A stretch of 64,000 bases of DNA from Paenisporosarcina sp. FSL H8-0542 (GTDB lineage: Bacteria; Bacillota; Bacilli; Bacillales_A; Planococcaceae). Below, piece by piece: positions 3,968 to 51,198 of the stretch. Within the stretch, counting starts at the first letter, position 1; each line of letters starts with the position of its first letter. Both the position numbers and the translations under genes were made by a program. The stretch spans positions 2,759,001 to 2,823,000 of the forward strand of contig NZ_CP152050.1 of NCBI RefSeq assembly GCF_038632915.1. Direction: 5' to 3'. A model generated the notes under the pieces. The model was not told where the DNA came from. It made no database searches and worked only from the letters and a program-made list of their open reading frames with translations.

Positions 3968-4356
3968 TCAATCTCCTTTAATCTTGGGAATATTTAGTTA
4001 TATTACCACAGATAAACTCCCTTGTAAATGAATTACCAAATAATTCGCCATTTAGTAACGTTTTCAAAGATCTTATAAAGACCGATTCAATCACTGAACC
4101 GAAGGGTTTTGTTCAGTAAATCAGGAGTTAATGAACACCCTATATTTACAGTGTTTTGTGAGGTTAATTCTTTTATTAATGTTCAAGAACTCGTTCAATA
4201 ATCTAAGTTCAGTAACCTATACGACACCTAAGTATAGTTACACGATTAAATCTAGGCCATAAGAAAAAACCGCCTTGTAAGGCTGTCGGTTATTCAACTA
4301 AAGCGCCCGTTAGTTGAATATGAAAAAAGCAATTTATCACATATTAAATTTAGGAG
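3968..4356. other. Non-coding stretch with a repeat copy
   Basis: AT-rich sequence holding one diverged copy of the palindromic element (4258-4330) and scattered GTTCA/TGAAC words (about 4105-4205) that form weak inverted pairs. I see no gene, RNA or clear promoter. Confidence 0.5.
4258..4330. repeat. Palindromic intergenic element lacking its left hairpin
   Basis: CATAAGAAAAAA, then a CCGCCTTGTAAGGCTGTCGG hairpin, then the right hairpin TTCAACTAAAGCGCCCGTTA with GTTGAATATGAAAAA. The central stem sequence differs from other copies but still pairs. Confidence 0.65.
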
Positions 4357-12737: not shown

Positions 12738-12814
12738 CTTTGTATTCTCACAAATTCAAAAAGAAATTCAATGATCCACAATGCAACCTTTTCCCGGAAG
12801 GTATTCTACATCTA

Positions 12815-12975
12815 TATTTAGGCAAGTCTCCTGACTTATGAGGTTGGTACGTTTCTTCCGCCTTCCCAGTTTTTCAACTAGTGGCTCATGGAAGTCACTC
12901 CCTCAATTACAGTGGCCGGACCGTCCAGGATTTTAACCTGGTTCCTTTTTAATCTTTACCCGCAAGTAAAGAACC
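12815..12975 (-). promoter_or_regulatory. Cobalamin riboswitch
   Basis: On the minus strand the class-defining blocks appear in order: GGAACCAGGTTAAAATCC, then GGCCACTGTAATTGAGGGAG, GAGCCACT, GGGAAGGCGGAAGAAAC and the B12 box AAGTCAGGAGACTTGCC (+ strand 12821-12838). It precedes the terminator at 12702 and the SLH/DUF4430 gene, so the whole operon should be repressed by adenosylcobalamin or a related corrinoid. Confidence 0.96.
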
Positions 12976-13010
12976 AAAATATATAACTATTCAATTATTA
13001 AATCGCTTTC

Positions 13011-23414: not shown

Positions 23415-23490
23415 CTTTGTTTTGTTAACTAAAGAAGTGTCACGTTAATTTTGATAAGAGGTTGCTGTTGTTTGTTGGAAAATGCCGTTT

Positions 23491-23562
23491 CAAACAAAAG
23501 TTGCGTTTTTTCCAACTAACATTTCAGATTCCCTAACTAACAATCAGAATTTTCCGACTAAT
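23491..23562. repeat. 21-bp phased array, TTTTCCAACTAA core (3-4 units)
   Basis: Cores TCCAACTAA, CCTAACTAA and CCGACTAA have their CCAACTA-equivalents at 23512, 23533 and 23554, exactly 21 bp apart; a weak fourth unit (CAAACAA) is at 23491. Sequence between cores varies. This is the main content of the 23415-23691 gap; the HAD gene promoter must also lie there. Confidence 0.75.
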
Positions 23563-24365: not shown

Positions 24366-24537
24366 GAGAAGCCCACTATAGCTCGACTCCAACGCTGGAA
24401 TGGCCGAATCGAAAAACCTGTTTTCAAATGTTGTTAGGAAGGAAGGCTAAGAGCCCGACATCGTGTCGGAACGCCTTCATGATCAACATCCGATTGAACC
24501 AAGCTTAGGTGCGGGCTGGCACTTGTAGCTGGACCGC
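24366..24537. repeat. Large structured intergenic element
   Basis: A 170-bp GC-richer block whose ends pair imperfectly (AGCCCACTATAGCT near 24370 with AGCTTAGGTGCGGGC near 24501) and which contains further hairpins: CCGACA-TCG-TGTCGG at about 24455-24469, and GTGCGG...CCGCAC at about 24510-24538. The text strongly resembles a degenerate extragenic repeat I have seen in other Bacillales, but I cannot name it. It may be a mobile-element relic or a structured 3' RNA. Confidence 0.45.
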
Positions 24538-32760: not shown

Positions 32761-32829
32761 AAGAAGGTTATATATTTTGTTCAAGAATGGATGTTTTTTA
32801 TGAAGCGATTTAGGCTGACCATTGTTTTG

Positions 32830-32920
32830 TTGGAACAATAGAGGGTTTAGTTGAAAAAAAGTGTGGCTTAATTGGAAAAAAGGAGATTTTAGTTGGAAAA
32901 ATTGCAGCAATCGTTGGAAT
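32830..32920. repeat. 21-bp phased array, TTAGTTGGAAAA core (5 units)
   Basis: Reverse-complement form of the TTTTCCAACTAA core. TTG of each unit falls at 32830, 32851, 32872, 32893 and 32914: five units at exactly 21 bp. Bases between cores differ. It lies in the divergent gap between the SASP gene and the membrane protein gene. Confidence 0.8.
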
Positions 32921-33000
32921 TATACCTATAGTGAAATCTATATGTGCCTATATTATTAATAACTCCTTTCATATATATAGAAACAGAAGGAGGATTCCGA

Positions 33001-33686
33001 TGAACAAAGTGATGTATACCGTATATGAATGTTATAAAGAAGTTTTCAACCCACTTGAAATAGTGACGTCTATTTTTAGATACATTAAAATAACCAGTTG
33101 GAAAAACCGTTTGATTCTTGCTACCATGCCAACTTCGTTACTTGTCTGTCTATTTCTGTATTTCAATAATTATTTTGTCCTAGCCACACTAACTATTTTC
33201 ACGGGATATTTAGTATATGCCATATTTGAATGTTATTTAAAACATGATATTTCCATTAACAACTCTATTTATCATTTCAAACAGGACTATGAAGAAGAAG
33301 TATCGACGTGGATTAACTTACTGGAACAGAAACTTCACTTTTCTCTTATGGATCTGAATAATCTCCAAATGCTAGAGGTCATTGTTCGAAATGAAATTGA
33401 AAATACCATGACCAAAAAATCGTTTGGAACCCGTATGAGTAGTTCCATTCAAATTTATTTAATTCCTTTACTAAGCTTTTTAGGCGGGATTCTCTTTTCC
33501 CAATCGATTACGATTCAATATTTGGACATGGTGTTCCTGGGAATTGTCTGGTTTTTCCTTCTCCTCGCAATTATTAATGTGATGGCACATACAATCTTTG
33601 ATTTCTCGAGTCAAACGAAACTTCGGGATATTTTATCCTTGCTTTTGGAAATCAAACTCAACATTATTTCCTCACAGAAAAAATGA
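33001..33686 (+). CDS. Membrane protein with four hydrophobic segments, unknown
   Basis: 228 residues from the ATG at 33001, which has AGAAGGAGG upstream; longer in-frame starts at 32931 lack a ribosome binding site. Two N-terminal helices (LILATMPTSLLVCLFLYF, FVLATLTIFTGYLVYAIFE), a charged middle (FKQDYEEEVSTWINLLEQ), then two C-terminal helices (SIQIYLIPLLSFLGGILF, MVFLGIVWFFLLLAIIN). No family recognised. Flanked on both sides by 21-bp phased arrays, a terminator follows at 33866. Confidence 0.65.
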
Positions 33687-33726
33687 TATTCCACACGAAT
33701 TTAATTAGGCAATTCGATTGATTTTT

Positions 33727-33836
33727 AGATATGTTTGAATGATTTCCAGATAAACCACGTTGATTTAGAGATATCACCATGCGAAATATTGATATGTACG
33801 AATGAATTTCAGATATCCACTTGTGAATTTCAGATA
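33727..33836. repeat. 21-bp phased array, TTTCAGATA core (6 units)
   Basis: AGATA/TGATA of each unit starts at 33727, 33748, 33769, 33790, 33811 and 33832: six units at exactly 21 bp. The best units read GAATTTCAGATA. The core differs from the CCAACTAA arrays but the period is identical. Confidence 0.8.
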
Positions 33837-33865
33837 ATCTATAAAAGACCTATTTTTCAACACAA

Positions 33866-33899
33866 AAAAACCTTTTGGAACTCAAGCCAGAAGGTTTTT
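33866..33899 (+). terminator. Terminator after the 33001 membrane gene
   Basis: AAAAACCTTTTGG pairs with CCAGAAGGTTTTT (one mismatch) over an 8-base loop. Confidence 0.7.
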
Positions 33900-39324: not shown

Positions 39325-39798
39325 TACCTGTTATTCAAGTTCCTTTTTCTCTATTATCATAATTCATCAACCTGAAAAAAGTCTATGTTTTCTAGCAATT
39401 TTGTAAATATCTTCATATGGTAGAGTGCGAAATTAAACACAAAAAATGGCCGTTCGAAACTGCCATCCTTTTTAAGCTAAAACTACCTAACACTCAACCA
39501 TATGCTTAGTTGCCGCTTCCCGTGAATCATCACTTTCCCTCGTTGTTCGATGGTGTAAACACTGTTATGATTTCATGTATTTTTTACATCTTTTAACATC
39601 TTAAATTGCATATTTAACCTATTGATGCTTCGCATCCATTTTTCAATTCAAAGGGGGTATTTTGTCACTTTTCCAACTAAACCTACATTTTTTCCAACTA
39701 AACTTTTAATAACTCCAACTAAACCTGAGATTTTTCCAACTAATGCCCATTTCTTACACAGAAGCCCCAGCGCCATTTGTAAAAACTTGTCTCTTCTA
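39325..39798. other. 474-bp gap with phased array
   Basis: Contains the 21-bp array at 39671-39745 and otherwise AT-rich sequence. A plus-strand reading frame across the array (FPTKPTFFPTK...) is a by-product of the 21-bp period and has no ribosome binding site. Confidence 0.5.
39671..39745. repeat. 21-bp phased array, TTTTCCAACTAA core (4 units)
   Basis: CCAACTA starts at 39673, 39694, 39715 and 39736: four units at exactly 21 bp. Units share TTTTCCAACTAAAC, the other 7-8 bases vary. It lies 54 bp after the stop of the symporter gene. Confidence 0.85.
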
Positions 39799-41110: not shown

Positions 41111-41146
41111 TTTCCAACTAACACGGAGTTTTTTCCAACTAAGCTT
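41111..41146. repeat. 21-bp phased array, TTTTCCAACTAA core (2 units)
   Basis: CCAACTA starts at 41114 and 41135, 21 bp apart, directly behind the sspH stop codon. Confidence 0.7.
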
Positions 41147-50943: not shown

Positions 50944-50977
50944 GGAAGCTGCCGAAAATACAATTTCGGCAGCTTTC
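50944..50977 (+). terminator. Hairpin of the GAAGATGCAATTTC loop family, variant
   Basis: GGAAGCTGCCGAAAATACAA with TTTCGGCAGCTTTC. The stem is changed on both sides (GCTGCC/GGCAGC). A decayed copy (AAAGCAGCCGAAGATGTATT) lies at about 50875-50900, directly after the upstream stop. Confidence 0.65.
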
Positions 50978-51012
50978 TGCATTTCATATAGCCTAAACGG
51001 CTTCACTTTCGA

Positions 51013-51081
51013 TTAATTGACACCGGCTGCTAATTAATCCGCATCGACTGCAATTTAATCGGCATCAAACCTGTGTTAATC
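51013..51081. repeat. 21-bp phased array, AATTAATCGGCATCG core (4 units)
   Basis: TTAATY of each unit starts at 51013, 51034, 51055 and 51076: exactly 21 bp apart. Consensus about AATTAATCGRCAYCGRCTGC. It differs in core sequence from the other arrays but not in period. It fills most of the 50978-51198 gap. Confidence 0.8.
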
Positions 51082-51198
51082 CTTTCCATCCAGTTTCTCC
51101 GACCAAATATGATGTAACAACTAACATTCAAATATATTTCCCCACCCTATCAAATACTGGCATGTCCCTGCATATACTCCACAAAGGAGGCGGTACAT

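Follow-up and report, generated by a model that had tools for sequence, protein, structure and literature searches.

What are two arrays of short direct repeats, equal in period and unlike in sequence, doing on either side of one gene? The question is posed by a window, the whole 64,000-nucleotide stretch of DNA analysed here, that spans positions 2759001–2823000 of the 3.63-Mb single-contig genome of Paenisporosarcina sp. FSL H8-0542 (label G000). Its plus-strand gene at 33000–33686 encodes a 228-aa membrane-like protein, for which an NCBIfam search gave zero matches and all Pfam matches fell under the cut-off; an ortholog is present in G005, a genome of the same genus. The original prediction described this gene as flanked by arrays with different cores, five units upstream and six downstream, sharing only a 21-bp period, and both arrays hold up. 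The upstream one (32825–32923, plus strand) belongs to what we call class B (core TTTAGTTGGAAAA) and consists of five TTAGTTGGAAAA units at 21-bp steps. The downstream one (33719–33838, plus strand) belongs to class A (core GAAWTNNAGATA, in its exact form TTTCAGATA) and has six units, with every step exactly 21 bp. Exact TTTCAGATA is found only in units 5 and 6, a pair that occurs once genome-wide; the other four units read TTTTAGATA, TTCCAGATA, TTAGAGATA and ATATTGATA, and GAAWTNNAGATA describes the class A core better than TTTCAGATA. A terminator-like hairpin, found by folding the flank, lies 3′ of the class A array (33864–33899, plus strand).

The two arrays were scored with weight matrices built solely from arrays elsewhere. 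The class A array reaches 86.5 (leave-one-out score), where 60 dinucleotide-shuffled windows give at most 12.9; the TTGGAAAA (class B) array reaches 73.5, where 60 such windows do not exceed 0. The cores of the two classes are not significantly similar in either orientation (P = 0.31), which confirms that the period is common to both and the core sequence is not. Coding repeats can be rejected, because the longest open frame across the class A array is only 63 codons and many arrays are intergenic. An Rfam scan of the window gave no match at the arrays, only a cobalamin riboswitch (12804–12993) and a Bacillaceae-1 RNA (24431–24497).

Further arrays lie in the same window. Class B arrays of four units are found on the minus strand at 39667–39744 (chain scan and matrix score) and at 23485–23562 (matrix score), and a class B unit pair, also on the minus strand, was found by pattern scan at 41113–41142 (G000:C1:2800113-2800142). 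A weaker 21-bp array with a different core (TTAATCC...) occupies 50977–51118, with no strand assigned, and includes a 21-bp tandem repeat at 51027–51066. Next to the array at 39667, a block of ∼56 bp (39509–39565) corresponds to only ∼12 bp in the closely related strain HGH0030. The array at 23485 had been singled out earlier because it contains TTTCAGA, taken as a possible bridge between classes. It is an ordinary TTGGAAAA-class array; TTTCAGA falls within the spacer, where letters vary freely, and the proposed link is therefore unsupported.

To place these arrays in the genome we used a sample of 1.264 Mb, made up of the window and 60 stretches taken at even intervals. Chains of six units occur six times at period 21 and not once at 11 other periods. 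In non-coding DNA, 8-mer recurrence is 75 for a lag of 21 and 61 for one of 42; lag 21 is prominent among the lags tested, with the reservation that multiples of three also occur in coding DNA. Isolated non-coding peaks are seen at other lags too, for example 38, 98 and 116–117. At least six core classes can be distinguished, each recurring at several places: besides A and B these are C (CTGTCWACCTGGA), D (CGCGAATAGA), E (TGAATGGACRAAAA) and F (TTTGAGCGATAAA), and there are further cores, such as that at 50977–51118 of the window. Matrix scans for each class return chains at assumed periods of 20–22 bp, and at most one chain at 17, 19, 23, 25 or 26 bp. Fourteen of the 15 class pairs are not significantly alike (P > 0.05), the exception being B with C (P = 0.03). 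Classes are thus discrete within this genome, as had been suspected from the first two arrays.

Unit number is nearly fixed within a class and runs from 4 to 7 overall, with spacings of 20–21 bp. Class A arrays mostly have 5–6 units, class E arrays 6 and class B arrays 4–5; classes C and D mostly have 4–5, as does class F, where spacings of 20 and 21 both occur. Since a step of 20–21 bp amounts to two helical turns, all copies of a core face the same side of the DNA. Two classes can also be found close together in opposite orientation, some 45 bp apart, as for A with B at G000:C1:1351337-1351516 and A with F at G000:C1:2928530-2928765. Two class E arrays (G000:C1:3169562 and 3458279) are preceded by GAATCGTGTC, which resembles the class A leader GAATTGTGCG.

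What is conserved in these arrays is a word and its spacing. Across the six classes of G000, core identity is 0.64–0.80 within arrays and 0.65–0.78 between arrays; for spacers the corresponding values are 0.28–0.40 and 0.25–0.35. Units of one array are therefore hardly more alike than units of different arrays, and there is little trace of recent unit-by-unit duplication; the arrays are sets of sites, not duplicated units. A second measure comes from strain HGH0030 (Paenisporosarcina sp.), whose DNA is ∼99% identical to G000 across the window region. This comparison covered 20 stretches and one locus, which is part of the reason that 24 of 57 arrays had no full match; of the 33 aligned arrays, 14 members of higher-order repeats were left out as paralogous. 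In the remaining 19 single-copy arrays, we counted 9 substitutions over 918 positions of the cores, 37 over 1215 of the spacers and 96 over 10434 of the flanks. The core rate is about one third of the spacer rate (P = 0.0013) and does not differ from that of the flanks (P = 0.86), which are mostly genes.

These figures bear on the simplest alternative, that the arrays are functionless tandem repeats undergoing neutral decay. Copy number of the higher-order tandem modules described below does vary between strains, as such a process allows. Decay would, however, erase core and spacer alike, yet spacers are random and cores are kept, and the same core stands at unrelated places. Neutral decay is strongly disfavoured by the within- and between-array identities, and we consider it highly improbable.

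Array positions are stable between close relatives and less so within the genus. HGH0030 has class A arrays at each of the 13 places where G000 has them, and at no new one. In G005 the class A locus of the window is kept at the same place with the same core, in three units and beside a protein 71% identical to its counterpart, so that the locus was not, as might have been feared, peculiar to one strain; the class B array of the window has shrunk there to a possible remnant. Ten G005 array places have both flanks in G000, a count that leaves out G005 loci with one flank or none (e.g. L098, L171, L173 and L327) as well as the first L170 array, situated in a gene that is duplicated in G005. At six of the ten, G000 and G005 have arrays that belong to the same class. 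The other four show no such match, and this turnover of places counts against the explanation that we favour below.

Words also change while an array stays where it is. The class B array at G000 3310633 and its G005 ortholog agree in place, orientation, number of units (five) and spacing (21, 20, 21, 21), with one degenerate end unit in each genome, but G000 uses the word TTTAGTTGGA and G005 uses TTTCGTTGGAC. Other differences between genomes are of the same kind. In the class F word GA(NN)GATAAA, all 19 units of G002 have TT at NN and all 7 units of G007 have CC; G005 has GC in 20 of its 22 units, and G000 is mixed. The fourth base of the class B word is A in 16 of 18 units of G000 and C in 23 of 28 units of G005. 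For class C the commonest word is CTGTCTACCTGGA in G000 and G005, TCGTCAACCTGGA in G003 and TTTCCAACTTGGA in G007. Arrays are carried by other genera of the family too: G018 has TTCGAGAATAAA, and 200 kb of G024 hold three strong arrays with new words, one of these words being present at three places. In G011 the lag-21 signal is weaker (200 kb) and class B pairs are present. Single pattern matches are a poorer guide across genomes. The class A pattern is loose, and its single matches in many of the 61 genomes are background (3 control hits); of the 15 control hits for the class B pattern, one genome accounts for 12, and of the 12 for class D, G018 accounts for 8.

From these genome-specific words it follows that cores drift between genomes, each class as a dialect, while remaining discrete within any one. 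The original prediction had offered two causes for the unlike cores, different readers or rapid core turnover. Turnover between genomes is borne out by the dialects; different readers would be implied by several unrelated words, and we infer them on that ground, no reader protein having been found.

A subset of arrays is embedded in longer units, tandem modules of 113, 197 or 264 bp, whose copy number differs between G000 and HGH0030. Satellite-like stretches of these modules with class A arrays lie at G000:C1:2715101-2719100 and 2894263-2895790 (L156 and L157); the 197- and 264-bp modules contain strong palindromes. Of 30 aligned copies of class F, most have imperfect palindromes on either side of the array, set in inverted orientation. 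In class F, then, terminal inverted repeats of the MITE kind are present. The motif TTGTG adjoins the array end in three classes: 6 of 15 arrays have it in class A, 6 of 7 in class C and 8 of 14 in class F. It occurs in 3.5% of non-coding 36-mers and is rare beside classes B, D and E. Leader and array together are very similar between two class A elements, those at 294226 and 2718979.

Modules, palindromes and TTGTG suggest copying of whole modules, and they keep alive the idea that the arrays are transposase-binding sites in short non-autonomous mobile elements, comparable to Tn7- or Mu-type ends and spread by transposition. It is weakened by the lack of any gain or loss among the 13 class A places shared with the 99%-identical strain, where the presence/absence differences typical of MITEs would be looked for. 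Spacers are saturated with changes and cores are not, no recurrent protein family lies beside the arrays and the orthologous array at 3310633 changed its core in place. Mobile elements are, in our judgement, an unlikely explanation, though one that deserves to be carried along.

The search for a recurrent neighbour covered 125 proteins near 51 arrays, with three control draws of 125 proteins each, and revealed no recurrent family beyond the controls: one family of three members and eight of two lie near arrays, and the control draws yielded 3, 4 and 8 families. A recurrent neighbouring gene as the source of the reader was rejected on this resemblance. Placement on the chromosome is less even. 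Skew and gene strand place the origin close to position 1, with the terminus at around 1.86 Mb, and 41 of 53 loci fall in the origin-proximal half (P = 4e-5), or 34 of 43 after merging loci within 6 kb (P = 9e-5). These 53 loci are pattern hits, some based on a single unit pair; the count excludes two class B units at 1989443, which we judged unlikely to form an array, together with the arrays at 547462 and 1351337, seen only in sampled or targeted stretches. Just one locus lies across 1.5–2.66 Mb, an interval picked after the data had been seen. One core type also goes with chromosomal place, an association that the original prediction had left to be checked: 12 of 13 class A loci are within 0.49 Mb (label-permutation P = 1e-4), a cluster that local copying alone could produce. 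Gaps between convergent genes are preferred (6 of 17 array gaps versus 61 of 425 background gaps, P = 0.024, with 7 arrays unassignable), and some arrays occupy divergent gaps. Position effects are modest throughout. Near-matches to the Noc consensus and two exact parS sites are present in the genome sample, separate from the arrays.

Of 41 arrays, a total that includes higher-order copies, 29 have cores oriented like the gene upstream, and several arrays adjoin terminator-like hairpins. Both facts would suit elements that lie in transcribed 3′ regions and are bound at the RNA level. Folding of class A, B and F arrays on both strands, however, gave no structure beyond that of shuffled sequences (z from −0.68 to 0.76), the two-turn spacing with its little drift is better suited to DNA, and divergent gaps contain arrays as well. 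Binding as RNA thus seems to us very unlikely.

The reading towards which we lean, without great confidence, is that the arrays are putative DNA-binding sites arranged on one face of the helix and read by class-specific proteins. An array would be 4–7 copies of a class-specific word of ∼10–13 bp, repeated every 20–21 bp with spacers free to vary. Each class would be bound cooperatively by its own sequence-specific protein, with every unit occupied on the same face and neighbouring bound molecules in contact. Binding to one face is what two-turn spacing, constrained words, free spacers and change of dialect in place would lead one to expect. When the specificity of a reader shifts, cores would follow in place; new arrays would arise mainly by tandem copying of the larger modules (113, 197 and 264 bp), together with slow gain and loss at single places. 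More tentatively, the bound arrays may serve as chromosome landmarks or docking platforms and not as promoter regulators, in view of the origin-proximal bias and the preference for gaps between convergent genes. The same bias, taken with the lack of a common neighbouring gene, points weakly to a role at the level of the chromosome in preference to control of single genes. Besides the turnover of places, the proposal has against it that no recurrent reader candidate turned up beside the arrays, that position effects are modest and that cores at single-copy loci are no better conserved than their flanks.

A bolder form of this proposal is a chromosome-marking code. Paralogous or convergent readers, one word each, would mark regions, which for class A would be mostly the 0.49 Mb mentioned above and for the whole set the origin-proximal half, and readers and their dozens of sites would co-evolve into species dialects. 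We regard such a code as a speculative possibility, doubtful at present.

Among known systems the iterons of plasmids come nearest. These are direct repeats of ∼19–22 bp in 3–7 copies, with words specific to the plasmid, and our arrays fall within the range of 3–7 direct repeats of ∼17–22 bp that is the usual mark of an iteron. The likeness to the iterons of Rep_3-type plasmids extends to the ∼21-bp step, the few copies, the possession of words of their own and the helical phasing. The arrays might then be sites for plasmid replication initiators, integrated into the chromosome or retained there, perhaps serving as decoys through which the cell becomes incompatible with plasmids that enter it, and both the geometry and the multiplicity of classes would fit. 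Unlike iterons, however, they number in the dozens, use six or more words and are spread across the chromosome with no common or recurrent gene beside them. A class F element and a class A module, the two queries used, found no match in 72,556 plasmid records, among which plasmids of this family are likely few. Plasmid origin was set aside for want of a match in that search, and the iteron reading as a whole appears to us quite unlikely.

A phage origin was likewise considered and rejected. Chains are present in at least three of 168 rescanned viral loci: L230, a phage contig in which three class F-like units 20–21 bp apart follow a tRNA-like gene at about 4070–4200; L382, a viral contig with five class A-like units in DNA with no called gene; and L417, where the chain is called coding. 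Several phage contigs among L208–L229 carry a non-coding pair of TGAGCGATAAA, the class F core, 22 bp apart and in two units only. No replication gene was recognised by eye near such phage class F word pairs, which are mostly 22 bp apart.

Other systems share less with the arrays. At the ends of Tn7 and Mu, too, a single protein binds at several sites of ∼22 bp, direct or overlapping; array places, by comparison, are stable between close strains, and paired inverted ends appear only as the class F palindromes. Noc sites, RacA ram sites and matS resemble the arrays in being dispersed in tens with an origin–terminus bias, but each is a single palindrome of one sequence, and the arrays are direct repeats in several. 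REP units (and BIMEs) are also short, intergenic, numerous and species-specific; they are palindromic hairpins, whereas class A, B and F arrays are without structure and have a helical period. CRISPR arrays have repeats of at least 23 bp and long spacers, in contrast to a period of 20–21 bp with spacers of 8–10 bp here. Each of these systems thus fails in at least one defining feature or is unconfirmed. According to the SPADE survey (PMC6344855), interspaced periodic repeats other than those of CRISPR and tRNA operons 'remain to be explored', and 21-bp arrays in several classes are not described in the part of it that we consulted. Our literature search, made mostly outside subscription journals, returned no account of such arrays, and there is a fair chance that the reader system itself is new.

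If class-specific readers do bind these arrays, they would constitute an undescribed layer of DNA-binding sites in a bacterial family, with several words, one geometry and rapid change of dialect. They would make the co-evolution of a DNA reader with its many dispersed sites tractable in bacteria, and add new candidates for a part in organising the chromosome, defending against plasmids or controlling mobile elements. Because one orthologous array differs in dialect between two genomes, a swap of words would put the reader hypothesis to a direct test.
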